DNA from: Amphiura filiformis
Lineage: Eukaryota; Echinodermata; Ophiuroidea; Amphilepidida; Amphiuridae
NCBI RefSeq assembly: GCF_039555335.1
Contig: NC_092628.1
Coordinates: forward strand, 37,656,965-37,720,964
Length of the DNA stretch: 64,000 nt
Direction of reading: 5' to 3'
In this document: one piece after another, positions 9,478 to 40,925 of the stretch
Layout of the letters: each line of letters begins with the position of its first letter
Numbering within the stretch: position 1 is the stretch's first letter
Position numbers and translations under genes: made by a program
Notes under the pieces: model-generated
What the model saw: the letters and a program-made list of their open reading frames with translations, nothing else
Told to the model about the DNA's origin: nothing
The model's database searches: none

Positions 9478-12400
9478 CTAGGTAACCTGGATAGATTGGA
9501 GTGGTGGTATAGGAGAGATCCGTTCCCCTTTATCCTGCAAGATTTGAGTACTACAGGACACTGAGGAAGGTTTGCTGCTCCCGTTAGGGGGTACAACAGG
9601 AATGTGTGCTACATCCTGATTACTACTAGCATCTTCATTGTACAGACGCTTGATGCTATCTGCGATGTCCTCCATGTCTTCATGCGCCGTATTGGTCTTG
9701 GTGATACCTGCTTCACCACTACTCTTCTCTACCTGTTTGCCTAATGGCTTCTTTTCAGTGGGTGTGCTTTGTGTGGTAGGAGTAGAGATGATGTACACAG
9801 TGTTGGACGCTGGATGTCCCTCAAGTATGGTTGTTATCTGCTCTCGACAGTGGATGAGTTCTTGATTGTCGATCTGAAAGAGAAAAGAGATCATTGCACG
9901 TGCATAATTTGTGAAATGTTACCACTGCTCAAGTTTAATCTGGTTAAACTGATTGTCATTTTGCCCATGGATGTAGCATGAAGTGACAGAAGTGGGTACA
10001 GTGTAATTGGCTGATTGATTAAAGGTCATAGTATATTGGCCTCTCCTTGGCTTAACAAACAAACACACATCCCAGTTGTTTGAAGGTGCTTCTCAGGGTA
10101 TGTAGCAAGCAGTGTGAAAGGATGAAACCTTTTGTCGCAAACACAACAACCATTATATTTAACGTAATCAAGAAGATTTTGTAGGTAATGAACACAACGA
10201 GGTACAATGCCCACAGAGTATACCTGATGTTCGCAAAGTTGAAGATGCAGTAAGAGGAAGTAAGAGGAATATCACTGAATTACATTTTTGTGAATAAGTC
10301 GTCCACAGCTAATTTGCAAGTGACAGGTATGCAATAGGCACCAAGTTTATTCACAGCCATGTGTACTTCATAGTTGATGTTTATAAGAGGTCCCAGAATT
10401 AACCATTCTTTCTTGCAAATAAATACTACATACCTCTAAAATCCTTTGCAGCATGAAGGTCAGAGCTAACCAATCCGGTGATAAAACTTCTAGCTCTAAA
10501 CTGAACAAACTCAAAGCTAATGTTGACCCTGGATACACAGCCATCTTATGACTGGTCAGACATCGACATAAACGACTGGTCAAGATGTTCAGATGACGAG
10601 CTGGTGTCATGTGACCGAGGGGAGCTAATAACTGCTGTTGCTGAGTTAATACAATGGCATGAAACTGTCAAGGAAGAAAATCAGAAAGCTTAAAATTAAA
10701 ACACAATCACTGTATTATCATTCATAGTTGATTATCGCATTACAGGATTTCTATATTTATTCTGGATTATGCTGGAGTGTAAAGTTCAACACACTTTTCA
10801 TAACTGATTGTGCATTTTTGCTTGTTGTTCTCCTGTGTTGCTAACAATAGAATAGCTACTTACTATCTGCAGGAACTCCAAACTAGTTACACAGTTGATG
10901 TCCCACTTGAGTTTATCTAAGACAATACGTTCCATACGCAGCACTTCAGACACAGTGCAACCGCACTCACTATCCCGTACAAGGTCTACAGTAGCTGGTA
11001 CAGCCTGTACGGAAAATAAGTATACAACATTTTAGTATCAAGATAATTGGTCTTTTGTATTTTTCCTGAAGATAATTTTGTTGTTTATTTTGTGTTTTAA
11101 AGCAAGTAGATGCACTGTCATGCAAGGTCAAGTGATGGTAATTTACTGCAATATCAACCAAGGAAAATCTAAGATTGATAGGGGTAATGCTGGTTTTATA
11201 CTTTCTAGCGTGGCGTGATGCCTCATCATGCCGCTTGCACTTGTCTGCAAGCAGAGCAACACACTGCTGAGCCGCATGACTCTAAAAGCCACTCTTGCCG
11301 CTCCAAAATCGTAGTTTGTTCTCATACGTCAGAGCGGCACCGCTCCGAGTTGACTTGAATTCAATTCCCAGCGGTGCTGCCGCCGCAGTAAAGCGATCGA
11401 TATATCGGCTTGCCGCTGGTCACCGCTATCGTTTTTGGTGCGATTGCGCAGTGAAGTAAAATCATCTTCAGAGCGGCAGGAAAGTTTGAAACCAGCATAA
11501 CATCTATAGAATGAATTCAGATTTGCCCAGTACATAGTCAGTTTCCACCAGAAGACTGTCTAAATCAGTCCCAGTGCTGTTTACCTCTTCGCAATCAACT
11601 GATCAATAATTAATGGATAACAAAAAAATAATAAATTATTGCATTTCTGTATAATTTCTAGTACAAAATCCTCAAGTAGAAATATGTATATTACCTCATC
11701 TTCTTCCTTAAGCTTGGCAGCTAAAAAGAAGCAGCTGAAGGCAATGCATCTCAGATACTTAGGTCTGGCCTGGAAATACAAATAAAAAAAACATAAAACA
11801 ATTAATAGCAAAGAATAATAATCAATTAATGAATCTGCTCACACTACCAAATTGAATTCATGTCAATATTTTATTGCACAAAATTAACATTTGCCGGGGG
11901 CCCTGGTAGAGGTCATTGTCACACTGCTAAGGCTCCTTTGTACAACACCATGATGTAAACATCAATGTCAGCAAACTCTTATACAGCTTGTGTGGATTTC
12001 TGATCACGTTCTCGAAGGATGATAAGGATTTATAACAATAGTTTTGACATTGGATCAAGCCTTGGTATGGATAGAAGTTATTAAGCTGTTGTGAGTCAAA
12101 TCAGTCAATGCAATTTTTTATCAGTTATTGTTGTTGACATTAGATGACCTATATGATTAGTCATCATATTATTGCACTATTCTGGCACGTAGCTACATGT
12201 TACTTTTTTGTACATGTATATTGACTTATTTTATTGGTCTGTCAAATATTACAATAACACAAAATGATCAAAAATTTTATTTCATTGGCATCGCTTATTT
12301 GCTACTTGCACTTCATGTCATCAAGGTATAGTTATGGTTTTGTTTTCTTCAAGAACAAACCAAACAAAACTGAAACCGATGTGTTCTTTTTGAATTGAAA

Positions 12401-13367
12401 CATGTCTTGACTTACCTTGACAGTCATGAGAAAGCGATCCAATAAACTAACACTATGTACAAAAGTCTCTGGACTGAAATGAAACTTGTAATTCAACTCT
12501 AGCAGCCATTCTATCATCTCATCACGCTGATATGGGTGGATCTCCAAATTCTGAAATAACATTCATTATAAATAAATTGTTGAAAATTATTACCACCCAA
12601 ATGTGACATGATCAACATCTACTCAGAGGCAAAAGTGATATGAGTAAAGAAAGTTAAAATTCACAACTGGTCAGATTTATGTGCCGTGCCATATGTCGAG
12701 CATGAACATGAAGGTGATTAACACTCAAACTGATCGTTGGCTGATCAACAATCATGACAACAGTAGAAGGGGCAGAGACGTCGCCTCTTGTAGCCTTCGC
12801 TCCTTCATTCTACTAGTAGTAGCTAGATGATCATCATGTACCGGGAACAATTGGAAATGATTTTTCATATAAATATTAAGTGCCTGAGTTCATCAGATCA
12901 AATTGTAAATAAATTGAAAATGATTTAATAGTGAAGCTGTCTTCGTTTCAAAGATATGCACTGAAAATGAGTGAAAATAAAGTAGATGTCATAAATATCA
13001 AAACAGATTTTCCTGTTAAAACTTGAATCTTTGAGGTTTCAAATATGAATACGATTGGGTTCCTTAAATCTGATCTGATTCAATTCATTAGGTCTGCTCT
13101 TAGCTGCAGGACATTTTAACAGATCTAACAATAATCACTTCAAAGTTATTATAAATAGATCTGCCTCAAACATTAATTAAATCCAATTTAATTAATTAAT
13201 TAAATCCAATTTAGCCCCCTACCTATAATAGCCCTATACTGTAAATGATACTAGTGATTATTGATAATATATTATTGAATACATGAAATACTGACCTCTT
13301 CTGTGGGTAACCTGATGTTGAGTGGTTTCCAACACTGTCCCTCCTTATCGATGGCATCATGTAACAT
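9478..13367 (-). CDS. CCNI: Cyclin I, six coding exons, complete CDS predicted
   Basis: Exons in transcript order: 13367-13296, 12550-12416, 11769-11695, 11004-10864, 10664-10434, 9873-9478. All junctions are GT/AG and phase 0, giving 349 codons plus TAG (human cyclin I is about 377). The N-terminal cyclin box starts in exon 2 (PYQRDEMIEWLLELNYKF, then SLLDRFLMTVK) and continues in exon 3 (CIAFSCFFLAAK, EEDE). Exon 4 has GCTVSEVLRMERIVLDKLKW. Exon 5 carries the second cyclin fold (SLELEVLSPDWLALT). The tail keeps the cyclin-I signatures ELIHCRE, IKRLYNED and a PPLQ end. Cyclin I is an atypical cyclin, reported in vertebrates to work with CDK5 in cell survival; this copy's partner is not shown by sequence. 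The start ATG (13367-13365) has G at -3 and an in-frame TGA just upstream, but a further 5' exon could add residues. The family call is very firm; the exact N-terminus is not. Confidence 0.93.
11188..11497. mobile_element. PIF/Harbinger-like MITE in cyclin I intron 3
   Basis: TAA duplications (11185-11187 and 11498-11500) flank TGCTGGTTT ends with CAAACTTTCCTGCCGC-type subterminal sequence. The interior is unusually CpG-rich for this window (AGCGGCACCGCTCCGAG, GCTGCCGCCGC). A single end of the same type (TTATGCTGGTTTCATACTA) lies at 29787. Confidence 0.65.
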
Positions 13368-13569
13368 ACCGAAAGTATGTTGGCTTTCAGCTCAGCATTG
13401 CCTATGAGGAGCATGATGCTGTCCTACTACCTATGATGCCAACCCCACACACAACCAAAGGGACCTGTCCAATATGTGAAAAGAGAAACAACTTTCATAA
13501 GACTATTGATTTATCACAGATTATTAGTCAACATTTGGCAAACATTCACAAGAAACAAGAACATTTTAA

Positions 13570-13754
13570 GGGGGTACTACACCCAAGGTCTTGGCCAGCC
13601 ATGCGCCCACCCATCTTTTAAGACGGGCTAATCTAATTTTAGACGGGTGGATTTAATGGATAGCTCTAAAACAGATGATTTTAAGGTTATATGAACTTGA
13701 AACTAATTATAGGCACAAAATAGGCATACAATTGGCCAGAGGTGTAGTACCTCC
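13570..13754. mobile_element. TTAA-flanked MITE just upstream of cyclin I
   Basis: Ends GGGGGTACTACACCC and GGTGTAGTACCTCC lie between TTAA at 13566-13569 and 13755-13758. Same family as 31839-32183. TTAA targets are typical of piggyBac-type elements. It sits about 200 bases 5' of the cyclin I start codon. Confidence 0.7.
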
Positions 13755-13922
13755 TTAAAAACATTTGTTTGCTGGGAAGGCCAAGTAAATTTGATCGGAT
13801 CTATAATGATTTGGAATGCCTAATTTCAAAATTTTAAAATGAGAAAAGTATGAGCTTTCCCTGATACCATTTTGATGGGGGTAAAGTGAGTGGTGGATGA
13901 GGCTGCCAATCGGGACACTCAC

Positions 13923-14193
13923 CTTTAACGATCCTTTTAGTTTGCAAAAATATTGCCCATATAAGCCGGGATGATTTGAACAATAAATTCTCCCTGAATC
14001 AATTCCTCACAATATCTGTTCTGCTTTCGAATCAAAGCATGTTTTAAGCCATTGTGCACACCTTGGATGTATAGTAAGATTTCGGTGTATGTATAGTAAT
14101 TAAGTTTACCCAATATAAATGATGAAAAGCCACCTCGTGAGTTGTGCTCATCCCTTTCTATTTCCATAGCCTTTATTAACAAAGAACCAAGAA
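13923..14193 (-). CDS. Unexplained spliced-looking exon, product not recognised
   Basis: On the minus strand a pyrimidine-containing acceptor (TTTTATTGCCAG at 14195/14194) and a strong donor (GTTAAAG|GTGAGTG at 13923/13922) bracket 271 bases. One frame is open from the acceptor for about 85 codons (it includes RGGFSSFILGKLNYYTYTE and ELIQGEFIVQIIPAYMGN) and stops with TAA 15 bases before the donor. I do not recognise the peptide. It lies between cyclin I and its likely promoter, so it could be an alternative 5' exon, a terminal exon of an unseen gene, or a chance ORF. Reading it into the cyclin I frame through the nearby AG at 13383 meets a stop, so a simple N-terminal extension is not supported. 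Confidence 0.3.
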
Positions 14194-14322
14194 CTGGCAA
14201 TAAAATTTAAGAAGTGAGAGTATAAGTTAAAAATTGGTGGGTATTTCTAGTGCCGTACTATTACACTGACTTTCGTATTCGGCGAGGACGATTTCGACCT
14301 CCTCGTTTGTTTACAAACAGAG

Positions 14323-14570
14323 AGGTAGACAAAAGGTGCTGTCAAAACTGTTCCGCTTGTCCACATACCGGTACTCAAGTATCAAAAGGATGGTCCACAA
14401 TAGAGTGATTCACGCAACATGAATAGGATATTAAAAAACTGTGAAGTAGGACCATGTGCTTCCTTTGTCCAATTTGCCATCAAGATTTCGAATGAAAACA
14501 GTTCAGACCCAGAACACGATCATGTCAGAAATTAATATTTTGTTCTGGGTCTGATTATTCGGACTAGGGT
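14323..14570. repeat. Dispersed repeat, copy 1
   Basis: GTTCCGCTTGTCCA, CAATTTGCCATCAAGATTTC and CAGACCCAGAACACGATCAT are shared with 29308-29561 in the same orientation, at roughly 85-90 percent identity by eye. No coding capacity. Confidence 0.7.
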
Positions 14571-14739
14571 ATTTCATGATTTAGGTCTGTGCATCAATTT
14601 ATGATTTTGGACAAGTTTGCAGGGTCAGAGTCTGAAGGTTTCTAAGAATCTGTGAGAATTAATTGCATTAATGTGAAGATTCAAAATTAAACCCTGATTG
14701 AAATTCTGAATGTGGCTGACTCAAGCCCAAGCCCAAACT

Positions 14740-15389
14740 CAGTTCAGTGCGCTGTGAATTCACAGACTGTGAATTCAAATTCTCTTAGTACTACTAACTT
14801 CTATAGTACCCGTACTGCATTTTTAGCTAAGTTTTATTGCAAGGATGGTAAGTTACATGCAGGGTCAGAAATTGGCGAAATCCATTCTCGCAAAGATTCT
14901 TGTCAACAAAATTGCAAGAATCTAAATGGATTCTCGTAAATATTTCAATTTATCATACAAAGTTATATGGCGGGCATGGATTCTTGCAAAATTCCACTGG
15001 GAGAATTCAAAAAAAAGGATTCTCGCACTTATTTGCGAATTTCTGACCCTGACATGCACTTGTTAATATTGTGAGTTTATATTTCCTATGCATGCGCTTA
15101 CAACAACATCTAACAATGAACATAAGTTATGCTGCAAGTTAAGAGTTTTTCAGATAATTCTGCTATTAATAGTTTATTGCATCATTTTGCTCTGCTTTTA
15201 AATTGTAGCTTAGATAGATTTGACAGAATTTGAAGCAAAGACGCCAATGTATCAAACAGACTGCCTTTCGCTGGCAAAATTGAAACATGTGAAAAGTATG
15301 TGAAAACTGACCCCGGGTATGTGATTTCATGGGAGTGTGAATTCAGACAGGTCTGTGAATTCACAGCACCCCGAACTATAAACTGAACT
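14740..15389. mobile_element. Inverted-repeat element with CTGTGAATTCACAGAC ends
   Basis: CAGTTCAGTGCGCTGTGAAT at the left faces ACAGCACCCCGAACT and AAACTGAACTG at the right. The interior has GATTCTTG / CAAGAATC palindromes (14895-15030). Confidence 0.5.
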
Positions 15390-15427
15390 GCCAATCCATT
15401 TACTTCAAATTGTATCTAGCCTTCCAG

Positions 15428-15684
15428 ACTATAGCTAAAATAACAAATTCTCGATCATGAGAGGATGTACCTTCTGCGTCAGCGTACTTTTCATAGAATA
15501 ACACGATCGCGCGACCTGCATGACCGAACCTTGACCTTGCCTAGTAACGACCGTGTGATTGGTCAATTCTCAAAAGCTGTGTTTGCGCCGTAAGCGCCGG
15601 TATTTGCGTAGTACGCTCGGCGCAAATAACAGTGCGTACCCAAGGTGGCTCTCATGATCGAGAATTTAATATTTTGGCTATAGT
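15428..15684. mobile_element. 257-bp inverted-repeat element, CpG-rich centre
   Basis: Ends ACTATAGCTAAAATAACAAA and inverse (ATTTTGGCTATAGT), with TTCTCGATCATGAGAG inside each arm. The centre is CpG-rich (GCGCCGGTATTTGCG). Confidence 0.6.
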
Positions 15685-15689
15685 TCACC

Positions 15690-17640
15690 ACGTAAACTTA
15701 TGGCTCAAAATTCGGACCGCTCGCCAATAAGTTTACTGCTTTCTGTGTTTTGAAATTTGTTGACGTTTTAACGATCCTTGATCGCTTATTTTAGCTGTGT
15801 CACGTCACATGCATGACGCTGGTGGGTACCAACCAAACTTAAAAAAAAAAAAAACTCGATCGCCGATAACGATGTGATATGGGACTTACATAGGATTACA
15901 CAGAGATATTTCTTGCCAAAATTTGACCATTTCTAGGCAAGTTGGCCCTACTTTGAAAAAGGACAGTCTTAAGTAAGTATAAATGCAACGCTTTTGATGT
16001 TTTGATGTTTTGGGAGACTGGGAGGGATCAGAACAAAAAAATGATGGAGCCTATTCTTGACTGTGTAATGTTCCTTCAACCAGTTGCCGTGCGGTAACAG
16101 TCTTATACGATGGACAGATAGTATATCAGTTTGTGAATGAGGACATCGTATAAGTTCCTTGTACTACTTCCAGACCCTAACTAATTTACAAAAAATTTCA
16201 TCACAATCATTCAAAATGAAACTGGAAGTTGATGCAATCATCATCATGCATTGTAATTTGTATAGCATCTAACTAAGCATGGAGCCAACAGTTGACGTAG
16301 TGCACGGACCCGTGCGATGGCATCAGTCACTATCGCTTAAAATATTGTGTTTTAATCGATTAGGAAGTCAATTGGAAATTCTACATCATGAGCAGCAACT
16401 ACAGGAAGTAGAAAACTACAGAACATGAACCTCAAAATGTCGTAATTTATTTAATTTGTGTTGTAACATTCAACAAAGAGTCATTCAGCCACAATGATCA
16501 ATACAATGCAATAGCAACCGAAATCGTGAAATTGTGATGGTAACGCCCCAATTTCTAAACAAAATATAAGCACAAAATATAGTAGTCTGCATAAAATAAA
16601 CCTACTCGCAAGGATCTCTGGGTTGATCTTAAATGTTTTAATAGTTTAAGACGTTTGAAATATTGCTACGAGGAAGTAAGATTTATGCAAATTGGAAAAA
16701 CTCTTCCTTGTTTTGTTACGTTTACATGTTTAGGCGATTAAACAATAGGACAACTGTCAAATTTCGAAGGTCAGAATAGAATTTTCGAATTGACCTACCT
16801 TTTGGCAAAAAAACCGGCGCATGTGACGGCTTGGCGAATCACCGTGATCCATAAGCGTCTGTGAAAACTTTTTAGCACATTTTGGATTCGATTTTGTGCT
16901 TAAAACGATGCGAATTTAACAGAAAATAAAATAAATACAAAGGCGTTATCGGGTACAGCTGATAAAGATGAAGCGTATAAATGTTTACAAGATGACCGAC
17001 AAACAAACGTCATCTACCACAAATTCATCCGCACAAAATCTCGGGACACTGGCTCAGCTTGCCACACATACTTTTAAATATGCTAGTTTTCTGCTTAAAA
17101 GAATAATTTCATTAAAAAAATTGTAACTTGTATCAAAATATGTTAATTTTTGCTTGATTTATTATAATAACAATGTTCTAATTTATAACGTGTACCAACA
17201 TTATGGATGTGAGAAGTACTTCGGTCTTGAATCACGGGTCCAATTGAGGTCAAACAGCCGGTAAAATTTGCATAATTGATTGAATGAAAACCACCACTTG
17301 CTGGTAAAGGACAACCTCGTCCAGTACTGATTTCGTCCTGTATTAAAACATGGAAAAAATTCCAATTTGCCAAACAATTCTATATTCATTCATTTTTATA
17401 TTCTTTAAATTCTAATATTCTTTCTTAATATTCGATTTCCATAAACGTTTGTTATTCTTTAGTAGGGATATATAAAATGTAAATGATAAAAGCAAGTTAA
17501 AAATTCAGGTTCACGGGTCCCCAGCCCGGGGTCCCCAGGCCACCGTCGAGCCGGAGGTGAGCTGTGTGAGCTTCTAGTAGGCCTCTGTGAAAGTGAATAT
17601 TAATATTATTGTGGACAATGATTGGTTTTCTCAAACGTCA
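15690..17640. other. Mostly unique intergenic DNA
   Basis: Includes a small hairpin near 16100-16155 (TCTTATACGATG with CATCGTATAAG), the candidate cyclin I first exon at 16799-16960, and AT-rich sequence from 17060. No convincing protein exon seen. Confidence 0.4.
16799..16960 (-). promoter_or_regulatory. Candidate non-coding first exon upstream of cyclin I
   Basis: On the minus strand, a CpG-containing stretch (GATTCGCCAAGCCGTCAC, GCGCCGG) ends in a donor-like CAAAAG|GTAGGTC at 16799/16798. It is about 3.4 kb 5' of the cyclin I start. No upstream boundary is visible and nothing ties it directly to cyclin I except position and strand. Confidence 0.2.
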
Positions 17641-17768
17641 TCGAACGAAATTAGGGGCTGTGCAATAATTATGAGCGCGGGGAGGGTAAAACGGGGGGGG
17701 TGGACTCGTCAGCCGAAGGGGGGGGCAAGAAATTTTGGCAAGCCGAGAAAGGGGGGGGGCAAGTGACC

Positions 17769-18182
17769 CGAGGGACACTCAACTTTGGAAGTGACGGTAT
17801 GTGCCTGTCAATAGGCCCTTTCTTCTGAAGTCGACTATACCCGATGACCACCTTTTTTAAAAGTCATATAGGCCCCCTAGGCCTACCCGATGACCTCCTT
17901 TTTTTAGTTGCGGCTACCCAATGACCCCCTTTTTTCTATATTTTCTAGAATAGCATCATCAAAATGCAACAAAATAATGCCGAAACTTTAAATTTTGGTC
18001 CAATTTTTCAAAATTTTCTACCCGATGACCCTTTTTTGAAATCTTATATGCCTACTCAATAATCCCCTTTTTTTTAAAATATTATACCCAATGACCCCTT
18101 TTTGATTTTGTTTGTACGCAATTGACCCCCTTTTTTAAAATAACGCTTTGTTCCCGATATCCGTCATTTGTAAAGTTGAGTG
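17769..18182. mobile_element. CCCGATGACCCCTTTTTT element inserted in the G-run element
   Basis: Left end GAGGGACACTCAACTTTGGA and right end GTAAAGTTGAGTGCCCCCC are inverse. CAAGTGA occurs on both flanks. The interior has about six imperfect copies of CCCGATGACCCCTTTTTT about 40-60 bases apart. A related copy in the other orientation is at 24860-25100. End positions are good to a few bases. Confidence 0.6.
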
Positions 18183-18267
18183 CCCCCCCACAAGTGATTT
18201 TTGGCACATATTCTTGGGGCGCCTTTTAAATAGGGGGTGGTGTTATTTGGCAAATTTTGACTTTTTA

Positions 18268-20540
18268 ATGTGAGGACCCCCTCAAAATATGGAGTTGACT
18301 GTACTGAACAATAATATTGACTAGAAAAAAGTAAAAACATACTATAACTCCCCTGTACATACCCTCTGAAAGTTTTAAGTCAAGGTTTCCGAATTCGGCA
18401 GTCTTGCACAGTATTAATACACTACCAGATATGCATTTATATGAATATAGGCCTAATGGACATATTTGGTACAAGTAATAGAATTACTTTACTAGGCTGT
18501 TTTAATGGATATTTATACAATATTTAAAGGTCTTTGGTACAATTGTCGCATATGAATACAAAACAAAGCTAACTTTTGGGGAAAATTAGGCCTATAGCAA
18601 AATAATATATTTTGATGCCGAAATCTAGCTGTATTTTGTCTGACGTTGCCCTGTGCATCATTGCTCTGCATCATTTACATGATTTATATGACATCATTTG
18701 TTTCCACAACTACGAGCATGCCGCCAATCTGCTGGCCTGTATTATGAGATGCTTTTTAGATTTAGACTTCTGAAAGTCGTCATGAAGGCTTAATTAATTT
18801 GTCATCATATTAATTTGTGCAGGAGCACTGCTTGACCTTCAACAAGTTCTACATCAAATCTCAAGATTCCATTTTCAAGCAAGTTCATGATGGCTTGTCT
18901 AAACTAAATGCAGACAAACTTTTTAATATGAGCCTGCATTCAGCTTTGTGTCCTGAAAAGATTCCAACAGGCAAGATATAGGCCTATGACAATGACATTT
19001 AGGCAAGTCCAGCGCAAAGGTAGCTGCAAGTACAACTTCAACTTGCAGCAGGTTTTCAAACACAAAAGGTCAATATCTTTGGTTTCTGAGATAATGAACC
19101 ATCTTCACATTCTCTAGATCATAATTATATATAAATGTGAACACGGAGAAGATGAATAAAGTACATTGTACATAACCTTATGAGCGCAGTGTGGGATTTG
19201 TAAATTGCAATCTGTCGAGAAGGGGTGTAAAGCAGATAGATGCGTGAATCTAGCTCAGTTTAGGAGTACAACCATATCATGAAGTGAGGTGGGAAAATAA
19301 AAGAAATAATCAGTGCATGGTACACTAAAGGTCTAGAAAGCGAAGAACAGGAGAAAGCACCAAAATAAAGATATTAATAAGCTGAAGTGTATCCATGGGC
19401 GCGGTCCATCCACATCAGCTGCAGAAGTTGACAAGTTTGTGGAATCTCACAGCATATACGAATTTTTATTCAATAATGAACAAATACATTTTGGGCCACC
19501 AAAGCGGCATTATAAATCATTACATGAATAAATTACAAACAACATGAAATTGAACAGGAAGAATTAATTGATTTTGGTGAGCCTGTATCGCAGTCTCCAA
19601 ATGATGTTGGTTCCAATCATGGAACTGACAGAAGCATACTTGGCAACAGCCTTGGCAACACGTTTGGGGAAGCCAAGTTTCTTCAACCCACTTCGGAAAC
19701 GGTGATGAATATGGCCGAGTGACCCAATCACGAAGACAAGGATTTTGCAATCAAATCCGCACAATGTGAGCAAGTTACAAAGAGGAGTATACTTTTGGTG
19801 ATGAAGAGAACAAAGTAGTCCTAGAAATTTGCTACGTCGGTGTTTTAGCCTAAAACAGGTGACAAGTGACATCTTTAGTTTGATGAAGGACTGTAGAAAT
19901 CTTTCTACAACCACATAGGCCTATGCAACCAATCTAATATGAAACTACTGAGCTATTATAAAACTCCGCTGAACTATGTTACCTCAAAACCAAAAGTCAT
20001 GCTTTAAGATTTCAACTCAGCTATGAATGTTAGCTTCTTTTGGAAAAAGCTGTGTAAAATGGATGCTACAGACTGAAGTAAAATTATAACACATTGATAA
20101 GCCCTACAAACAGGCCTACATCATGTACATGAAATGATATCATAGATGTGTACTTTGCACAAAACATCAAGCTTAATAATACTTTATTGAGTAGACTTTT
20201 GGGACATGTAAGGTACATATCCGCACCCCCCTCCCCCTCTGCCCTTATGTATAACTGTAGGCCTATGGTCACTCAAAAATTTTGTACCCTGTAGAGCTGT
20301 TTCTGATATCTACATGTAAATTATCAAACTTCAAGAGTACAATTCTATCAATTGTACCATTCAATTTGCCCATTATATCATTAAACTGTGATTTTCTATA
20401 CAAGCCTGCCGAATTCGGCAACCTTGCACTTCGAATCTTCAGAGGGTATGTACAGGGGGTTAGACCCCCAAATTTTTTTTTAAAGAGGTGTTTTCTCTTT
20501 CAGGGTGACCATCTCCATATTTTAAGGGGGTCCTCAGAAA
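18268..20540. mobile_element. 2.3-kb block with about 135-bp inverted ends
   Basis: TGAGGACCCCCTCAAAATAT, CCCCTGTACATACCCTCTGA and TTCCGAATTCGGCAG at the left have inverse partners at 20405-20540. The middle holds the retroelement C-terminal fragment (19520-19914). Arms are only moderately similar, so the unit is old. Confidence 0.45.
19520..19914 (-). pseudogene. Retroelement C-terminal fragment
   Basis: The minus strand encodes KYTPLCNLLTLCGFDCKILV, FVIGSLGHIHHRFRSGLKKL and NIIWRLRYRLTKIN. This resembles the tail found after the RT in many invertebrate LINE-type polyproteins (a KY-PL, V-V-GSLG, leucine-rich pattern). No RT domain is visible upstream. It sits inside a larger pair of inverted ends (18268-20540). 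Confidence 0.5.
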
Positions 20541-20934
20541 AAATTTGATTTATCACCCCCCTCTATTTTAAAGTAAAACACTCAAAAAGGCTTAGGAAAA
20601 ACCGTATGTAGGCCCTACGGAAACGCTTATGCAAATTTTCCTGCTCGCTGCCCTACTCGCAAGGTTAGCAACAGACCATGCAAGTTGGGATCCCAAAAAT
20701 TTGGCACGGTGCGAGGGTGGGGGAGATTTTTGGCGGGCCGAGAAGGTGGGGGGGGGGGCAAGGGCAAGCTATTTTTGGCGAGCCGTTTGGAAATTTTAGC
20801 CCGGCGGGACTCATAATTATAGCACAGCCCTTTATGTCAACAAATAATGAAAATCAATGTTTGGTAAAATCGGTTGAAAACGATCTTTCCACTCAAGCAC
20901 AATTTTTGACCAAAACAATATTTATGTCATTAAG

Positions 20935-23951: not shown

Positions 23952-23954
23952 TAA

Positions 23955-26369: not shown

Positions 26370-26537
26370 CAAATTTCACGATATCTTTGCTAAACGAATT
26401 AATCTGCAAGAAATATTTTGTACATTAACATTATGTAGCCAGAGGTTTCCAGTGATATAAAAATCTCAACTTTTTTTTAGAAAAGTGGGGGGATGAGGCT
26501 GTGGATCACGAAATGCCCTTTTAAATACACGGGTCTC

Positions 26538-27024
26538 GGTGGTGCAATAATTATGTGTACCCCCGGGGTGGTGAATTATAAGGGCAAAAGGGGGGGGAAG
26601 CATTTTTGGCAGGTCAAAAGGGCCTAGGGGGGGGCAAGTGACTTTTGACAGGTCGAAAGGGGCAAGCAATTTTTGGCACAGATATTTTGGGTACCATTTT
26701 ATTTTACGCCCTAAAAAGGCGTAGGAAAACGTTAGGAACATGTTCAAATATGCAAAATTTCCTGCTCGCTGCGCTCGCATATTTAGGCTATATGAGACAG
26801 TTTAAGGTTTTAAATTCAGGTTCCCCAAAATCTTGCATGTGTAGGCCCTAGGTCCTAAGGGGGGCACAGTATCATTTGGCACAAAAAAAAGGGGGGGACA
26901 AAGGTTTTTGGCACGTCGAAAGGGGGGCAAAGATTTTTGGCACGGCCAAAGGGGGGGCAAGCGATTTTGGCAGACCATTTTGAGAATTCACCACCGGGGG
27001 GTACACATAATTATTGCACCACCC
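26538..27024. mobile_element. G-run MITE family copy, complete ends
   Basis: GGTGGTGCAATAATTATGTG and the inverse ACATAATTATTGCACCACC bound the element. Internally GGGGGCAAGCGATTTTGGCA-type phrases repeat five or more times. Confidence 0.7.
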
Positions 27025-27539
27025 CTTAACACATTTATGACAATGACAAAAGTACCAAAATCTGAATTTTGATGATTTTTACGATCGTCCCGATCAGCAA
27101 ATCACTGAATGGGCCTTTAACTATATATATCAGCCTCTTCTTGAAAGCATTTTGCCCTTGTACGGCAAGGTTCCAATATGCGTGGGGTGATCCTGTAAGG
27201 AGCCTAGCTGGGTGGAGGTCGCGTATTTGATTGACCTCCTAAGATTTTTTAATACTATCTGTGTTGACCTCTATAATTTGCGCTGACAAAACATTTATTC
27301 TGTAAAAATACACGGAATAAAATGTAAGTGTTTAATTATTTTACAACAATAAGCAAGTGTTATTCTTATATCAAAATCTGTGACCAAGACAGACTAATTT
27401 ACTTTGTGTAAAAACAATGAACAAAAAGCGCGCTAAATTTAACTGTAAAAAACCGTCAATAATAAATCAGCTGGTTGCCCGCGTCCCGCCCATTCTTCTT
27501 TGTTATGACCAAACAGCTGATTGAGGTCGATCACATAAA

Positions 27540-27680
27540 GCCGGCTTAATCATACAGCGGGAACTTGATCTTCTACTGTACTAAAGTACCATTGTTTATT
27601 TGTTATGATTGCGCAGTGGCAGTGCAATAATACATAAACACGGCCTTTCAACTTTTCTTCATCAGTTCCAGGCAAAATAG
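27540..27680 (+). promoter_or_regulatory. Candidate cyclin G promoter and non-coding first exon
   Basis: A locally GC-richer patch (CCCGCGTCCCGCCCATTC near 27480, then CACATAAAGCCGGC) precedes a sequence ending in a good splice donor, AAAATAG|GTAAGC at 27680/27681. The cyclin G start exon has its own acceptor, TTCATTTTTACAG at 30970, 24 bases before the ATG, so a spliced 5' UTR exon must exist somewhere upstream. This site fits but is not proven. Confidence 0.3.
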
Positions 27681-28071
27681 GTAAGCTTATGAACCGGGCT
27701 TTTAATTTATGAATATTAATATAAATAGTTCCAATAATTGGAACTCACGGCTCAATTCAACGTTCAAGTCGAAATTTGTTGTAGTAAATTCCAAGTACAC
27801 TGTACAACTTATGAATATAATGTATTATGAAGTATTATGGCATTGAATTGATTGTATGTAATAATGTATTAAAAAGCCTAGCTAGGCTAGGGCCTTCCTT
27901 TACTTGCTTTAGGGTTTTTTATTTATTTTTACATGTAAACAATGCAATGCAAACCAATGAAAGGGTTATAAAGTTTTTGTTCAGATTTCCTTTTACAAAA
28001 TAAGCGTACTGCTAGCCGTCCAGCGCGTATTATTTGCACAAGGTCCAATGCACACGCTTGACGTCGCGCAC

Positions 28072-29175
28072 ATATCGCTCATTCTACAAAATCCGGTGCC
28101 AATCCACTGTAAACATTGAAAAAATAAAAGAAGAAAAAAAAGACCTGCTTTTTGTGTTTTTTAAACAAATGTATCACTACTTTCAGATGTAAAAGATTGT
28201 CAACACCACTTGCATATTTTTCTTTCAGGACATCATGATGTTTTTTCACACTAAAACTCAATGTAATGTGAGCTACGTTACCGGCTACAAAATGGGTTGG
28301 TTTTACTTAATCCAAGGTCATAAAAAGCAAACGAAAGATCACTTGAGTGAAATGTAACACCGATTTCACCATTTCATAGAAGTTTTGAAGATGCATAAAT
28401 GAGTGCGTAACGTAGCTCACAGTAACGTAGTTCACGGGTTTTTAATGTTTTTGATGTGATTTGCGAACGTTAGAATGTTATGTCGGTTAATTCTAATATA
28501 AATGGGATTCGATCACTGGTACCTATCACATATTATTAGGAAGTACTTGTTATACAAGTGCATATACTACTATGGAATTCTGGTAACGTAGCTCACCAAT
28601 CTTAACATGGTCGGTCGAAATTTCAATGTTTACAACATTTCTATGCCAAAAATGCTACAGCATCACGATTTTACTGTTATTTTAAAAACCTATGAGTGTT
28701 TCCTTTCAAAACCGTAAACTACGTTGATACCTCTGTTTTACGTCTTTCCAATAACGTGTGTTAAAAAGTGGTAACGTAGCTCACAGCGTTTTCGGGGAGA
28801 GTGCAGTTTATTTTAGAATTACACAAAGAGCGCTTTTAATCACTAAAAATAATGTTGATATGCAATATGATGACGCCTTATCTAATTAAGAAACAACAAA
28901 TATGTAAAGATATCGCATTTATTCAAAGAAAATATTAAGGATCAGATTTGACACTTGAGCAGTGGAAACGCAATTTTAGCGATTTTCGAGCCTTTGCAAG
29001 GGTTAATCAGGCTGAAGAAAGCATTTAAAGTATGGACAACTATATATGTCTGTAGATCTCGTTTAGTTCTACCAGAAAAACAACATATTTGATGCCCTAA
29101 ATGCTCGACAAAGTATTTGTGGACCAAAGAATGGAAAAAGGGCTATTGGCACCGGATTTTGTAGAATGAGCGATA
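28072..29175. mobile_element. 1.1-kb element with 32-bp inverted ends and repeated GTAACGTAGCTCAC
   Basis: Ends ATATCGCTCATTCTACAAAA and inverse at 29144-29175. The 14-mer GTAACGTAGCTCAC (one base different in one copy) occurs at 28407, 28422, 28583, 28771 and, inverted, at 28268. No protein frame of note. It lies between the candidate cyclin G first exon and the start exon. Confidence 0.7.
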
Positions 29176-29307
29176 TACGCGATGGATAAGCTGTCAAAGG
29201 AAATCTGAATAAGACTTAACACTGTACTTCCCCAAGGCAGCTATAACATACATGTAAAGAATAAAACCCCCTATTAAAAGTAAAGAAATGCCTAATCATG
29301 TAATAGT

Positions 29308-29561
29308 GAGGTAGACAAATCAAAAGTCCGTTCCGCTTGTCCAAACACTCAAGTATCAGAAGGATGGCTGGTCCACAATAGCGTGATTCATGTAACATGA
29401 ATAGGGATTAAAAAGCTGTCAAGTATGTAGAGCCATGTCACATGTGCTTCTTTTGTCCAATTTGCCATCAAGATTTCATATGATATGGAAACAGTTCAGA
29501 CCCAGAACACGATCATGTCAGAAATTAATATTTTGTTCTGGGACTGATTATTCGGACTAAA
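29308..29561. repeat. Dispersed repeat, copy 2
   Basis: Second copy of the 250-base sequence at 14323-14570, in the same orientation, about 1.4 kb 5' of the cyclin G start exon. Confidence 0.7.
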
Positions 29562-30206
29562 TGTAAATGTATTCAGATTAGTTTTTAATTTTCTGACTGC
29601 TGTGTCAGTCTCTAAAATGTAAGTCGAGTAAGAAATTATATTTGATGTAATTATAGTAATTGTTATTTCTGTACACACGAAGACTTGACGAAGTGCGTTT
29701 TTCCTCATGATTGAATATTTGAGCCTGAGGCTACACTTTATTTATATCATTGTACATTTGTATACTGCACCAATAAAGTATCCTTATGCTGGTTTCATAC
29801 TACCCTGCCGTTTGTCAGCTGAGCGGCGTGGCGCCACGCATATTGCAGACAAGCGGACACAATCAAAAATGTTGCTAAAATTACACTTCAGCAAAATTTT
29901 AGACTGCCCAAAAATACATGTAGGCAAATCTTGCTCATCAAAATAACTTTCCAAATTTCAACATTAATAGAATAAATAACCTCCAATGCAAAAAAATTGC
30001 ACCACTGTCCGACCAAAAAACCATAGCAAAGCACTCTTTTATAGCTTTATGCGTAACTATCGTGTGCAAATTCGAAGCTAGAGTTCTCGAGTAAGCCACA
30101 AGGCTTTATATAAAAGCAGGCACCCAGGCTTTTTTACCTCATGGTTGCCCAGTTTTGGCTCCTGGTTAGTCCAGAACAAAATATTCATTTTGTTGATGGA
30201 TCCACG

Positions 30207-30623
30207 GGGCTGTGCAATAACAACATGCATGAGCACTTTCGGGGGGTAAATTTCGAACGGCCCACCAAGAATTGCTTGCCCCACCCTCTCGGCCTGCCCA
30301 CGGTACCCTTGCACATGCCAAATTTTTGGATTTCCAATTTGCAAACCTATATTGACTAGATATGTTGCGAGCGCAGCGAGCAGGAAAATTTGCATTAAAG
30401 CCTTTCCATACTGTTTTCCTTAGCCTTAGAGCGTTTATTTAAAAGGCTCTATGTGTGCCACATAAATTGGTGCCACATAAATGTGTGCCAAAAATTGCTT
30501 GCCCCCCCTCCCCCCTCGGCTGGCTAAAAATTGCTTTCCCCTACCCCCCTTTTCAGCTTGCCAAAAATGCCTTGCCCCCCCCAATTTTACCCTACCCCAG
30601 AGCTCATAATTATTGCACAGCCC
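30207..30623. mobile_element. G-run MITE family copy just upstream of cyclin G
   Basis: Ends GGGGCTGTGCAATAAC and CATAATTATTGCACAGCCC; the interior is in the opposite orientation to others (AATTGCTTGCCCC phrases). It ends about 350 bases before the cyclin G start exon. Confidence 0.65.
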
Positions 30624-30994
30624 TAAAGAACTTTCAAATATTGGCAAAGTTACCCTCGATAAAGAGAAAAGCGAGGGTAATAAATTTTGTTCCACTGGTT
30701 TCATTTTCCGGTGATCTTTTCTTTTAGACCACCCGAGCTATAACAGGTCAAAATTACATATTTTAATATCAAAATAAACTTTTGCATCAAGATTAAACAT
30801 TTTTTTTATAGCTATAGCAAACATGCCTTTTATTGAACATCGAACAAGCTTTATTAAAAATATGAATGTCTGTATCACACAGCTACAAACAAGCTAAATT
30901 CACAGGACCTTTCTCAAGTATAATAAGAATATTTATTCTTCATTTAAATATTTATTCTTCATTTTTACAGATTGTGTGAAGCAAACAAATCAGA

Positions 30995-33900
30995 ATGATT
31001 GGTGCTGCTGATGAGAGTTTTGAAAGGGATTCAGAAGAAGACATCTGTGCATCTTGTTGCAAACTCTCTGAGATTGAATCGTGTGAATGGCAGGTTGGCA
31101 CCCAGCAACCCAAATATAGTAGGAATGCTGAAAACAAAGGCTTCCTGTTACAGCAGATCCAGATAGCTGCCAATTTACAGGACATCTACCAACCAAACCT
31201 GAAACACTTACAAATTCCACAGGTAATGGTGAGAATGGTTTTTAAAAATGTGACCTGATGCACAATGAGGCACATGTCAGAAGAGGACAAATTTCTGTGT
31301 GTAAAATATTCTATGAATCAAGTCTCTTTCTCTTTCATTAACTCCAGTCAGCCGCAATAGCTTTGAAGTTCAACATACAGTGCTGTGTTTGCTTAGCATT
31401 ATTTCTTGTGTGTACATGTATATAAGACAGAACACACTGAACCTCAAAGCTAGTGCCGCTGACTAGTACTGAATAAAGTACTAGTGAGGTCAATTCAGAA
31501 TAAGCAATGTTTTACATATAGTCACTGCAAACATATGTTTTCAGTCTGGAAACCAGGTTACTGATCAATCTGACAAATTAGTAATGGAAGGGGATTTTTT
31601 TTACAGAAAAGTCCGCATTTACTAATTCTTATAATATAATTAACTAAAAACATTTTTTTGTCAAACTCTGACAACTATCCGTAATATTCAGTATAAATAT
31701 TGAAAAAATCACAGGCATTGACTCTTTATGCAAAAATTTCTGATAGATTTGCACAAAACTCAGCTACAATATGGGACCATTTCACATGACTTAAATTTTG
31801 ACAATTTGAGCATGCTTGTTTTTGAATTGTTCATTTAAGGGGTACTACACCCTGGCCAATTTTGTGCCTATTTTTGCATTTTCTCAAAATTATAGCACAT
31901 TGGTGACAAGTAAGATATGTATATTATAGGGCAAGGACTACAACTACTGTACTGAAAATTCAGCAACTCAAAGCAAGTAGTTATTGATTTATTGATCAAA
32001 TACTGGTTTTCCCTCATTTTTGACTGTAACTCCACAACTGTTGTCTGTGCTGAAATAAAATTTCAGAGCAGTAGTTGTAGTCCTTGCCCCTATAATATTC
32101 ATATATTACTTGTCCCCAATGCGCTATAATTTTGAGAAAAATGCAAAAATAGGCACAAAATTTGGCAGGGGTGTAGTACCCCCTTAAAGCAGAATACAAA
32201 TTAAATGTTTGCAGGAAAAAATGTGTTTATAACTGTTATACCTTAAATAAATACCGTATATTTTGTTGTTTCAGAACTGTCAGCACATTAGCAAGGATGT
32301 GATAACAACAGCCATGCATGATGTTTTAGTAGACAGGTTAAGAAGCTTATCAAGATATTACTCTCATTCGGCAAAGACGTTCTTCTTAGCAGTCAATATT
32401 ATGGACAGATTTCTGTCTGTGGTCAAGGTAAATAATTGATACAATTTATGCAGTTTTTTTATGTTCAATGTGATTCATCACAATTGAACTAAAAGGGGTT
32501 AAGGCACTTGGAAAAAGTCAACAATTTTGGTCTAAAAATTGGCCATGGTTAATGCTGTCCCATTCAAAAGTACAAGAAGACCACCCACACATTGTGAAGT
32601 CACTTGTCCAGACTTCCTGTCTACAAGCAATAATGGATGCCACTAGTGCTGGCATCAATGAATTGTTAAATACGAATTACTAAATTTGGTAATATAGACT
32701 GGCTACGGGCCTGTGCATGGTAACAATTGTGAAAATGCTATAGATGAGTTGACTTGTGACTTCATTGCAGATTGCACATGCATCATTACAGTTCCCATTG
32801 TTCCTTGCCTGGCGGTATGCGTGTGCAACTGTGCATCATATTTTGCTCAGGTCCTGTGCTTTAAAAAAAACATGCCACATCTCAATTTGAACAGTGTAGT
32901 GGTTGTATGCAGTTTGCTCAAGCATAATTTTTGTATCATATACCAGTCCCTTGCCTTTGTTGATAAACGTTGAGGTTAACTCATCTGTACTGTGATACCA
33001 TGCAGTGATTCAGACATGCCTGAGTGACTTGCCCTTGAGGTGCCTGAGTGAACTACTGATAATACCAATGAAGACATGCTAACGACTGCTAATCAATAAA
33101 TTGCTTTCATGATAAGATGAAAACCGTTTTAACTATGTTTATTATGATTTGTCATCAGGCTAAACCTCATCACTTACTATGTATAGCTGTGGCATCATAT
33201 TATCTGGCAGTCAAATCAATAGAGAAAGAAAAGGTGAGCATCAAGGTTTCTTTGGACCCCTATTCACATATAGAGTGGACTCCCTGATTTGCCATATTGG
33301 ACACCTGAATTCAGTAGATCAGTACTGATTGTGAAGCATACTGTCCGCATACATGTATTTCACTTACATGTACCATTAAATTAACGGGTGGTGTTACACA
33401 CACAGAAAGTTCTGAATATCGCTGAACTTTCAAGTTGCCAGGGTTTCCTCTTCATTTTCAAGGGAGAATATTATATTTATGGTCACTGATTCATGTATGA
33501 AAAAGATAATATCATATATGAAGGGCCTAGGGATATGCCACATACAATTTTTTTATTACAGCAAAAACTGCCCCTTATAAACTACATTTTGTAAAGAGAT
33601 AAAAATGGGCTATTCCACTTTGAAATCCATAAACATGACCTTAATCTCCCACACTGGGAGCTAGTGTTCATTTCAAATGGGGTTACCGGAAGAGGTAATT
33701 CCATTTGAAATCGACACCCACTGTGTATGAGATTAAGGTCATGTCTTCCATAGGGGTGCATGGATTTCAACTGGAATAGCCCAATGGGTGTTTGGAATAT
33801 GGGATGTCTACCCGGGTGTCCTGAAAGAACTGTATCGTCAGGAACTGAATTCTATGGGTATTTTAATGCATAAGCCAAACACAACTAAACAACCGATATG

Positions 33901-36900
33901 GTATCAGCTATATCACATGCTTTTTGAATTTTGACAATTGACCACTCCATTTTTTAACTAATAGAATTTTACAAAACTACCTCATTTTCAATCCGTTCCA
34001 CAGAGTCAAATATCTATCAATGACAATTATAGACGCCTCATGCGCTGAGGATGGGCAGTGATTAGCACTATATACAGATCATCGATTGATATTTGAATTC
34101 GTGGAAAGATGTGAAAATGAGGGAGTTTCGTAAAATTCTTATAACAAGAACGCCGGTTGTGGTCAAATGTCAAAATTCAAAAGTATGTGACAGCCGATTT
34201 ATTTCTCAACCACACCAATTATTTAGTTATGTATAGTTGTGGAGTAAAACCCTGCAATTAGTTTCTGATGATACAGTTCTTTCAGGGACAACCTGTGTGG
34301 TCAGAAATAATTAGTGTCCAGGATTAATGAGCTTATTTTTGGGTGGCAAGAAACAATGCATTCAAGCCAATGGGAAAATGCACTTCCTTTATTTGTCTGT
34401 TCCAACAGCTGTGACACCTCATGCAAATTTTCTTGGGTAGGATTAAGAAAATGTTCACTGGACAAGGACATACTGGAGGGGCTTGAAAACTAGCACTACA
34501 GCTCGGTTATATTGATTTTTATGCCAAGTAAATGTCAATACCTGCAATGCATCCAGGTAAATTAAAGAGGTGTCACTGAAGCTGGAATAGATTGTAGATC
34601 TTTAGTTATTTTTTATTGTTGACAATTTTAAGAAATTGTTATAGTTCATAGACTTGTAATTTTCTAGCATCAAATTGTTTAACCACTTTTATATGGTGCG
34701 CTTTTGTTCTCTTGCATATTACCTTGAAAAGCGTTCAATTTACCGGGTGTAGCAGAGCAAAATGCTACCCATTTTGAACAACCTGTTACACAAACATCAC
34801 CTAAATAATGTTTTCGCTCAAAATTGAACCCTGCTTGAAACTTGCAGCATTTATGTGAAATTTGAAATGCACATTTTTCAAAGTTTCTAGTGGTATTGTG
34901 TTTATTTATTCACTGCAGGATGTGATGTCTCCGGATCACTTAGTAAGGATCAGCCAATGTGGATGCTCTACAAGTGACATAGCCCGCATGGAGAAAATCA
35001 TTTGTAGCAAACTCAAGTGGGAATTAGATTCCCCTAGTGCACTCACATTCCTTGAAGTCTTCCATGCATGGTGTGTTGCTGAATCCATTATGGGTAACAA
35101 AGAAGATCAACATCAAGATCACATGGAGCAATTAACAAATATCTTAGAAGGCTGCATGTGCAATTTTCCTCTTACCTTGTTTCAGGTAAGCATGTCAGTT
35201 TGGTAAAATGGCAGTTGTGAATGTACTGAGTGTATAGATGATGATGATGCTTGCTAACAATGGCTGTGCAAGGCCTCTTACGTCGGACACCCACACTTTT
35301 TTCACCTTCATGCAGTATAAAAATGATTTAGTCCCGATATTTTATTAAGCTTACGAAAAATCACATTGCTTTCCAGTTCTGTCTAGTCTTCGTACTCCTC
35401 AAAGCTTTGAAGTTTCAAACCACCACATCCCCACATAATTAGTTAGGGCTCGAGTGTGCGCTGTGTAGCCTTCTTTCAGTCCAAACTAGTACTGTGGCTT
35501 TGTGGGTGCAATAGCAGCGCCTGTGATGTTGATGATGCTTTGACATCAGCCAAAAACTTAATCTTATGACACTGAATTTTGTATTGATTTGTGTCTTTTC
35601 TTTTATTTTGAGTACTTATTATATTATTATTAGTTATGATATTTAAATTCCAATTTTGGCGGATATGTACGGATTACCAAAAACTCTGGCGGATGACCAG
35701 ATTTCATGACCTGGTCATCCGCCGGATAACCTGATTTTTTTTCTGAATTTGTACACTGGTGGACCACATTAATGCTATTATCCTATCACTTATAATAATT
35801 TTGGTTGTAAAAACAAATTGTGGAAATTATCATATTTCAAATAACTTTATGTACTGCAACTTTGATGGTTGGTTGTCACGATTATAAGATTCAAGTTGCA
35901 TTCTGTGTTTGTTTTTATTTTCAGCCCAGTGTGCTTGCATTTACATTACTGTCAATACAACTACCTCGATATATAACTGTACATAACACAAGTGATATGG
36001 AGAACTTGGATTGGGTGCTTACTGGCCTACAACATTTCACCAAGGTAAGATACGTACACATGTAGATTCTTAAATTGTTTTGGATATATACAGTCATTTA
36101 ATTTTTACACCCAAAATTTAAGACCAACTTATTGATATTTTGATAGAATAATTAAGTTGTGATTAAACAATTCAACTCAAAACTGTAGAATAACAGTAGA
36201 ACAAAAATATTTGATACAGAAAGACATTGCTCGTATTCAAAATGCAATTTGATATGTCTGATGTGCTCTCATGTCCCACAAAAAATACTGTCGAAACCCT
36301 CATTCCAGATCCCTTAAGGTTGTCAATATTGATTTTATAGAAACCCTTGCATGTGTTGTCTAAAATATCCAGGTGATGTCTTTATATTCGCAGGTACATG
36401 TTTTTGGTGCAGACAATGTATTCCGTTGCATGGTTCCACCATGATGCAAGGAGAGCCTCAAACTGGCATGACATGAAAGGAAGAATTACATAACTGTACG
36501 CAATGTTCAATTACCATTCTTGCATGCTGCCAGATCGAGGCTTTCCTCACACATGGCGGAGCCATGCAATGGATGAATAGGCCAGCAAGTGCAGATGATA
36601 TGCATTCATAGACTATTGACATACTATAGACTTTTTTTCACTGTTCAACCTCTCGGTGATGTGCTAATAATGTACTTGCATATTGTTTTTCTTTCCCTAG
36701 ATGTCTTCCAGTGATATACAACGTTGCCAATGTCTGCTCAGGGATTTTCTTCTAGACTATTGTTCATCTAAGTGCAAGCGACCTACAAGCAAGTTGGTAT
36801 GGATTGTATCATCAAAAACAGCCAAAAACATGAGATTTAGTGCACAGATCTCCTCTGATTTGCAGACAATACCAGAGGACAGCACCCTGCTATCGGACCC

Positions 36901-38414
36901 TGAAATATCCTATGACAGGTAAAGCAATTTAGTCTCTCTAACACTTGAGTTTATGGCTCCATGTTTCATGGTGTCTGGTACAGCCACAGAATTAAAACCA
37001 GAGAACCAGGACTCGACCGCCATCTTGATACAGGCATGGAGCAAAAATTGGGGTATTCGGTTTCCTTCGAATGCGCCGAGGCATTCGTTGTCATGCAAGC
37101 GACATGGATGATGGGCGCATTTGAGAGACGCACTTGATGTGACCTGCATGTGAGTACCAAAATGCTTCAGATGAGACGCAAAATTGTTTTTGTTCGTCTC
37201 CGCGCACCGTCGGCAAGGACCCGAATACCCCCAATTTTCTCACCATAGCTGACGGCGCGATTGTATGTGGCGGTATAGGGAGTCCCGGTTCTCCTTCTCT
37301 AATTCTGTGGGTACAGCCTAATTAAACAGGGATAACCTGGCTCTTTTCTGGTCATATCGGTATATGGGAAAATATGTGATGTGATCAAGCTAAATGAGTC
37401 AACCACAATCAAAATTCTGTTTTCAATTTCATTAAATGTGCCATTCTCAGTGCTTTATTTTACTGATAAAATAATTGCTAATCATAATCTGTTCCAGAGA
37501 TATGGCCATTTTAGCGTTACTAAGAACAATAAAATACAAACCAACATCGGACTCAGTTTGCTTGATAACATCACATGCCATATTGGATTAAGGCCTAAAG
37601 TTCTAAAATAATCAAATGATATGAAGCATGGGCATGTGCACTACCTCCAATCCCATGTGCTATTGATACAACAGATTCCAAATAGATCGTAAACAAACAA
37701 GATACTTTCTAAGAGTCAAAAGTTTTCAAGGAGCATGACAGAACATGTCCTGTCCAAGAGCATTCCTATTTCAATGGTAAAAACTGTAAAGATATACCAT
37801 TATTATGTTTTCAGGGTTATTAGGAGTTAAGAAAACCTAATAATGATAATATTGGATGGCTTATTTCGCATGATACCATAACATATCGGATTCGTACAAA
37901 TATCAAACTCGCCGCTGGCTCGTCCGATATTTGTATGACTCATCCGATATGTTATGGTATCATGCTCAGCCATCCAATATTATATCATAATTGTTCCTAA
38001 TAAATGCATGGGGCATGCAATTGTTCCAAATAGGGGCATTTATTATAGGCAATTATATAACTCTTGGCCATGACTTTCATAGGATTTGCTGACATGTGCT
38101 GACAATGTCACTTCTAATTCTGGATGTATCTTATATGGGGAGGGTGGAATTGATATAATTGACATTTGAACTTTAAATATTATTGCCATAATAATGTATT
38201 GCACAATTTCTTCTCCAGCTCATCAGATGAAATTTGGGAAGCCAATTCATCAACAGAAGAACCAAGCAATCCAATAAAGCATCCAATAATGGTGGTGACA
38301 GCACCCTCTTCTAAGTCAGCTCAGTTCAGCGATCCAAGCAAACATTGTGCACTACCAGACGTCACATTATTTACAGCTCATAGTCCTAAATACATGGCCT
38401 ATTGTGTTCTATAA
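30995..38414 (+). CDS. CCNG: Cyclin G (G1/G2 family), seven coding exons
   Basis: Exons: 30995-31222, 32275-32427, 33159-33233, 34919-35185, 35925-36044, 36701-36918, 38219-38414. All introns are GT/AG; the first five are phase 0 and the last is phase 2 (AG plus C makes Ser). Total 418 codons plus TAA, longer than human CCNG1 (295) or CCNG2 (344). The cyclin box runs over exons 2-4 (FFLAVNIMDRFLSVVK; YYLAVKSIEKEK; RISQCGCSTSDIARMEKII). The second fold includes PSVLAFTLLSIQL. Exon 6 carries the cyclin-G hallmark SKLVWIVSSKTAKNM followed by LQTIPE, closest to CCNG2. The acidic N-terminal 76 residues and the Ser-rich last 65 are poorly conserved. The start ATG has A at -3 and an in-frame TGA 15 nt upstream in the same exon. 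Cyclin G proteins are unconventional cyclins linked to stress response and PP2A B' subunits in vertebrates; here that role is inferred from family only. Confidence 0.93.
31839..32183. mobile_element. TTAA-flanked MITE in cyclin G intron 1
   Basis: Ends GGGGTACTACACCCTGGCCA and the inverse CAGGGGTGTAGTACCCCC, between TTAA at 31835-31838 and 32184-32187. The inner arms pair for about 150 bases (AAGGACTACAACTACTG with its inverse). It ends about 90 bases before exon 2. Confidence 0.75.
33607..33782. mobile_element. Short MITE in cyclin G intron 3
   Basis: Terminal repeats GGGCTATTCCACTTTGAAAT and ATTTCAACTGGAATAGCCC, with inner inverse pairs (CATGACCTTAATCTC and GAGATTAAGGTCATG). Confidence 0.65.
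33963..34138. mobile_element. Short inverted-repeat element in cyclin G intron 3
   Basis: AGAATTTTACAAAACTACCT at the left pairs with GGGAGTTTCGTAAAATTCT at the right. The interior includes GACGCCTCATGCGCTGAGG. Non-coding. Confidence 0.55.
36210..36313. mobile_element. Single end of the TTAA foldback family in cyclin G intron 5
   Basis: AATGCAATTTGATATGTCTG, ATGTGCTCTCATGTCCC and a terminal CAGATCCCTTAA match one arm of the element at 23955-24614. The other arm is not seen. Confidence 0.6.
37836..37999. repeat. Foldback sequence in cyclin G intron 6
   Basis: AATATTGGATGGC, GATACCATAACATATCGGA and the inverse copies CCGATATGTTATGGTATC and GCCATCCAATATT make a long hairpin centred near 37915. 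Confidence 0.65.
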
Positions 38415-40923: not shown

Positions 40924-40925
40924 TA

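Follow-up and report, generated by a model that had tools for sequence, protein, structure and literature searches.

Adjacent, divergent cyclin I and cyclin G genes in the ophiuroid Amphiura filiformis: a probable relic of the inverted duplication behind both families

The vertebrate CCNI-CCNG2 pair is among the closest known counterparts of the locus considered here. We take human CCNI and CCNG2 to be adjacent and divergent at 4q21, with an intergenic distance of roughly 80 kb, and CCNI2 and CCNG1 both to lie on chromosome 5. The locus is part of a 64,000-nucleotide stretch of the ophiuroid Amphiura filiformis (NCBI RefSeq assembly GCF_039555335.1, contig NC_092628.1, positions 37,656,965 to 37,720,964, forward strand), which is called the window throughout and supplies all positions below; it carries a cyclin I gene beside a cyclin G gene. 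CCNI, CCNG1 and CCNG2 belong to one cyclin sub-group, and vertebrate CCNI and CCNI2 bind and activate cyclin-dependent kinase 5 (CDK5), according to the accessible sections of PMC5256034. In the available text of PMC3923393, cyclins I and G invariably cluster and share one ancestor, their split being placed after the Nematostella lineage. A lysine and a glutamate define the cyclins that bind cyclin-dependent kinases (CDKs) in an excerpt of PMC6971155. Among echinoderms, cyclin I and cyclin G2 both appear in a sea star transcriptome, and the best match of each is to sea urchin (Table 3 in the available part of PMC5584759).

Cyclin I, on the minus strand of the window, has six coding exons between 13367 and 9478 and encodes 349 residues; cyclin G, on the plus strand, has seven between 30995 and 38414 and encodes 418 residues. 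Both genes were rebuilt exon by exon. All 11 introns (11/11) are of the GT-AG type and both reading frames are intact. The genes are adjacent and divergent, with 17,628 bp from ATG to ATG by the gene models, which bears out the initial annotation of a minus-strand cyclin I and a plus-strand cyclin G with start codons about 17.6 kb apart. The pair very probably comprises the CCNI orthologue and a single, pre-duplication orthologue of CCNG1 and CCNG2, derived from an inverted duplication at the root of both families and never broken up since.

The identity of the two proteins is indicated by sequence scores, for which human CCNI, CCNG1 and CCNG2 were represented by sequences not drawn from a database, as in all comparisons reported here. 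With phmmer, cyclin I scores 262.7 bits against CCNI, about 108 against CCNG1 and CCNG2, 102 against the neighbouring cyclin G and 53 against cyclin D3. Cyclin G scores 158 and 148 bits against CCNG2 and CCNG1, respectively, 103 against CCNI, 101 against the neighbouring cyclin I and 35 against cyclin E1. Identical residues number 161 of the 328 aligned between cyclin I and CCNI, including the C-terminal tail, where D-IKRLYNED and SP-PPLQ are common to both, and 110 of the 303 aligned between cyclin G and CCNG2. Aligned with each other, the two neighbours reach a score of 296 (best of 200 shuffles: 56). The Pfam domain Cyclin_N is found in cyclin I with an expectation value (E) of 3.5e-23 and 82.1 bits and in cyclin G with E 2.1e-18 and 66.7 bits, where the cut-off is 23; the second cyclin fold is weaker, with Cyclin_C matches under the curated cut-off (E 0.0072 and 0.00053, respectively). 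Downstream, cyclin G carries SKLVWIVSSKTAKN ... TIPED, the counterpart of human KL-WIVS-TA ... TIPE, which we take to be a feature of CCNG1 and CCNG2. In a MAFFT alignment, cyclin I has K88 (in LAAK) and E119 (in RME), and LAVK and RMEK of cyclin G align to the same columns. K88 and E119 are presumably the CDK-binding residues, and both proteins should, as judged from their sequences, be CDK partners through the cyclin box. The Cyclin_N box, the lysine and glutamate, and the sister-group relation of I and G are all traits of the animal cyclin G/I subfamily as described in the available parts of PMC3923393 and PMC6971155; the latter gives an arginine for human CCNG2 where window cyclin G keeps the lysine. 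Of the PDB matches listed (the best 60 of 63 for cyclin I, 53 for cyclin G), none is a chain named cyclin G or cyclin I; among them, cyclin I comes nearest to D cyclins and cyclin G to cyclin E1. Pattern scans matched 9 and 10 stretches in viral contigs (two scans) and 169 stretches in prokaryote contigs (one scan), and tblastn showed none of these to be a relative.

Phylogenetic trees place both proteins on the expected sides with moderate group support, and neither falls outside the CCNI or CCNG clade, the outcome that the initial annotation had named as contrary to its view. Support is 88/91 for the I group and 83/81 for the G group, and 68/58 and 89/92, respectively, without the long-branched CCNE1. 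Since human CCNG1 and CCNG2 cluster apart from window cyclin G in two trees (98/97 and 93/95), the pair is most likely older than the vertebrate CCNG duplication, window cyclin G having most likely separated before CCNG1 and CCNG2 were formed. Rates after the I/G split are unequal: cyclin I (end branch 0.39) is near human CCNI, whereas cyclin G (end branch 1.13) has moved much further from CCNG2.

The two genes also share an intron plan. Introns I24/G76, I69/G127, I94/G152 and I218/G281 match in both position and phase (phase 0). These are four of the five introns of cyclin I and four of the six of cyclin G, and they fall in identical columns in a second alignment (MAFFT). Coding exon 3 is 75 bp long in both. 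The chance of at least four coincidences is about 3e-9 over 900 sites, or about 2e-7 if phase is ignored, on the assumption of evenly falling introns and with the length rounded to 300 codons. The neighbouring cyclins are thus paralogues of one plan, a point absent from the initial annotation, and this shared intron plan is the best new element of the analysis. For paralogues with matching introns, adjacency is expected from tandem duplication without any selection.

The simplest origin for the pair would be a single inverted tandem duplication. One ancestral G/I-type cyclin gene would have been copied in inverted orientation, and the two copies would have given rise to the cyclin I family and the cyclin G family. 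They would have remained back to back here and, as we take the human map to read, at 4q21. Absence of breakage would suffice for such lasting linkage, with no special mechanism required. We infer that both families arose through the inverted duplication itself and that their linkage has been passed on unbroken. Likeness to the vertebrate pair lies in one CCNI and one CCNG gene that are adjacent and divergent, the vertebrate side being our assumption. The differences are that window cyclin G branches outside CCNG1 and CCNG2 and that 17.6 kb separate the start codons here, against presumably about 80 kb between the human genes. The suggestion in the initial annotation that the linkage is older than vertebrates stands in part: the position of cyclin G outside CCNG1 and CCNG2 argues for it, but it depends on a human CCNI-CCNG2 arrangement that we assume. 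If that arrangement is right, the CCNI-CCNG linkage likely descends from before vertebrates. No open-licence paper was found that links CCNI and CCNG2 with synteny, 4q21, SHROOM3 or duplication, which is weak evidence of absence. In the available part of PMC10343441, ccni is listed beside shroom3, septin11 and sowahb (spelt sqwahb) without CCNG2.

Other histories could leave two related cyclins side by side. The four common introns and the adjacency of the genes would suit a recent private duplication in this lineage, with copies that merely resemble CCNI and CCNG, but each cyclin scores higher against its human namesake than against its neighbour. Constraining the window cyclins as sisters makes the tree 40.0 log units worse and is rejected in the approximately unbiased (AU) test on this small data set (p-AU 7.5e-6); the probability of a private duplication is next to negligible. 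It is also very unlikely that the genes were separated and then re-adjoined by chance, independently here and in vertebrates. By a rough estimate, two given genes among 20,000-30,000 are adjacent with a probability of about 1e-4 and divergent in about one quarter of those cases, and the matching introns mark the neighbours as paralogues of one plan.

Selection offers a different account, in which the two genes are held together by a common enhancer, a bidirectional promoter or a single regulatory domain. A very long-lived linkage would favour it, if the human arrangement is as we take it. So would a p53-type double site at 30819-30851, 144-176 bp upstream of the cyclin G ATG, which is the sole full site in the window (mean expectation 0.03 in 60 resampled sequences, with a consensus that we presume); mammalian CCNG1 is a p53 target. 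However, the spacer of this site, 13 bp, is the widest that the pattern permits, which makes it weak and a candidate lead only, and it has no bearing on cyclin I. A distance of 17.6 kb separates the start codons, and a likely transposon lies in the interval between them. Repeats found elsewhere in the window (matches of at least 60 bp) make up 25.6% of this interval; their share is 17.3% in the cyclin G gene span and nil in that of cyclin I. The proposal in the initial annotation that the pair is kept by shared regulation finds no support in this layout. Conserved animal microsyntenic pairs resemble the window pair in keeping order and orientation over long times; they are, we presume, usually unrelated genes tied by regulation, whereas the partners here are paralogues, so that plain inheritance is enough to explain their adjacency. 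Bidirectional promoter pairs have the divergent orientation in common with the window pair but lie less than 1 kb apart in the available part of PMC2713978; the window figure of 17,628 bp is measured between start codons. On balance, maintenance by selection appears unlikely. A combined history is similarly doubtful, in which the pair would be the unbroken product of a family-founding inverted duplication in early bilaterians and would since have been held by a shared regulatory domain.

Several points weigh against an unbroken pair left by the founding inverted duplication. No star is attached to the I group or to the whole G group in the trees, and support for the I group drops when CCNE1 is left out. 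The long branch of cyclin G could push it outside CCNG1 and CCNG2. The trees omit CCNI2 and other invertebrate cyclins, the alternative for the AU test was chosen after the first tree had been viewed, the human sequences are not database records, and the human gene map is assumed. Among the introns, I24/G76 sits in a poorly aligned stretch, and the remaining ones, one in cyclin I and two in cyclin G, are unshared. An older cyclin ancestor may be the source of the shared introns, which give no date for the duplication. Re-linkage after a separation is improbable, as judged with one invertebrate locus compared.

The exon structure of cyclin I (minus strand) begins with a short coding exon 1 at 13296-13367 (72 bp), which contains the start codon, was located through a scan for ATG-to-donor stretches and lies near the start of human CCNI in the alignment. 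The start codon is well placed because an in-frame stop is the ninth codon upstream of it. Exon 2 follows at 12416-12550, exon 3 at 11695-11769 contains K88, exon 4 at 10864-11004 contains E119, and exon 5 occupies 10434-10664. Exon 6 (9478-9873) ends with the stop at 9478 and encodes the C-terminal tail with DSIKRLYNED and SPIPPLQ, as seen in the alignment to human CCNI. In cyclin G (plus strand), exon 1 with the start codon is at 30995-31222, exon 2 at 32275-32427 and exon 3, equal to cyclin I exon 3 in length and phase, at 33159-33233. Exons 4 and 5 are at 34919-35185 and 35925-36044. Exon 6 at 36701-36918 carries KLVWIVSSKTAKN and TIPED by gene model and alignment, and exon 7 (38219-38414) contains the stop at 38414.

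The interval between the start codons (13368-30994) includes 5' untranslated parts, and no gene was recognised in it by open reading frame (ORF) and Pfam, transfer RNA (tRNA), Rfam and repeat scans. The claim in the initial annotation of no clear gene between the cyclins agrees with this: the 90 ORFs of at least 55 residues that lie wholly inside give no Pfam match better than E 0.022. As a control, 10 single ORFs around the cyclin genes yielded five Cyclin_N matches, four of them better than E 0.02; ORF scans are blind to exons shorter than 55 residues and to untranslated exons. The whole 64-kb window contains no tRNA and no Rfam family at the gathering score. A likely non-autonomous DNA transposon, CpG-rich, lies between the genes at 27977-29212; its inverted arms, within 27977-28103 and 29145-29212 and with an exact 32-bp core, measure 37 nt (95%) and 21 nt (90%) and are 1,041 and 1,194 nt apart. 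A cluster of five copies of the motif GTAACGTAGCTCAC (one with a mismatch, one inverted) falls entirely within this element and was dropped. CpG-rich blocks at 15.3-17.3 kb and 28.0-29.2 kb were likewise dropped as promoters, the latter because it overlaps the likely transposon with its inverted ends; 24 such blocks, some overlapping, occur window-wide. A promoter and terminator scan of the interval (61 promoters vs 55.3 in shuffled sequence, standard deviation (sd) 7.4; 24 terminators vs 14.2, sd 4.6) relies on bacterial patterns and was not used. Near both ends of the interval is a repeat in the same orientation, at 14316-14566 and 29302-29559 (273 aligned columns, 81% identity).

Of the 145 flank ORFs with at least 55 residues, 126 were scanned with Pfam, the 19 over satellite or simple arrays being dropped; ORFs that run into a 200-N gap were excluded before the count. 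The only credible matches are two GIY-YIG fragments. These nuclease-end ORFs, at 56484-57200 (minus strand, E 2.7e-7) and 61687-62448 (plus strand, E 1.9e-4, just under the curated cut-off), are probably remains of retroelements, which we take to be Penelope-like. Weak Pfam matches, with a best E of 0.0051 in the flanks outside GIY-YIG and the 0.022 of the interval, were treated as chance. No relative of shroom3, septin11 or sowahb was recognised among the scanned flank ORFs. The cyclin pair looks isolated, and no third gene was recognised by which the comparison to the vertebrate neighbourhood could be extended. Downstream of cyclin G, arrays of a 29-bp satellite are spread over about 16 kb, with about 88 copies in the main array (45666-48218) and smaller arrays at 40411-40925, 41453-41951, 49776-50013 and 55094-55542. 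The 200-N assembly gap is at 3618-3817, and its translated flanks (about 3273-3475 and 3871-4091) are alike by eye, possibly as a collapsed tandem duplication.

The microsynteny result overall is sound but modest. Two little-studied cyclins gain a concrete origin, in which one gene would have been copied in inverted orientation, after which the copies diverged into a CDK5-type activator (cyclin I) and a cyclin G that we take to be linked to stress and p53. The vertebrate copies would receive a simple ordering, with CCNI-CCNG2 on human chromosome 4 and CCNI2 and CCNG1 on chromosome 5, as we take the human map. A conserved divergent pair of paralogues would make co-regulation of the two cyclins testable. 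If a shared regulatory domain had held them since the duplication, the two cyclins would be one regulatory unit across animals.

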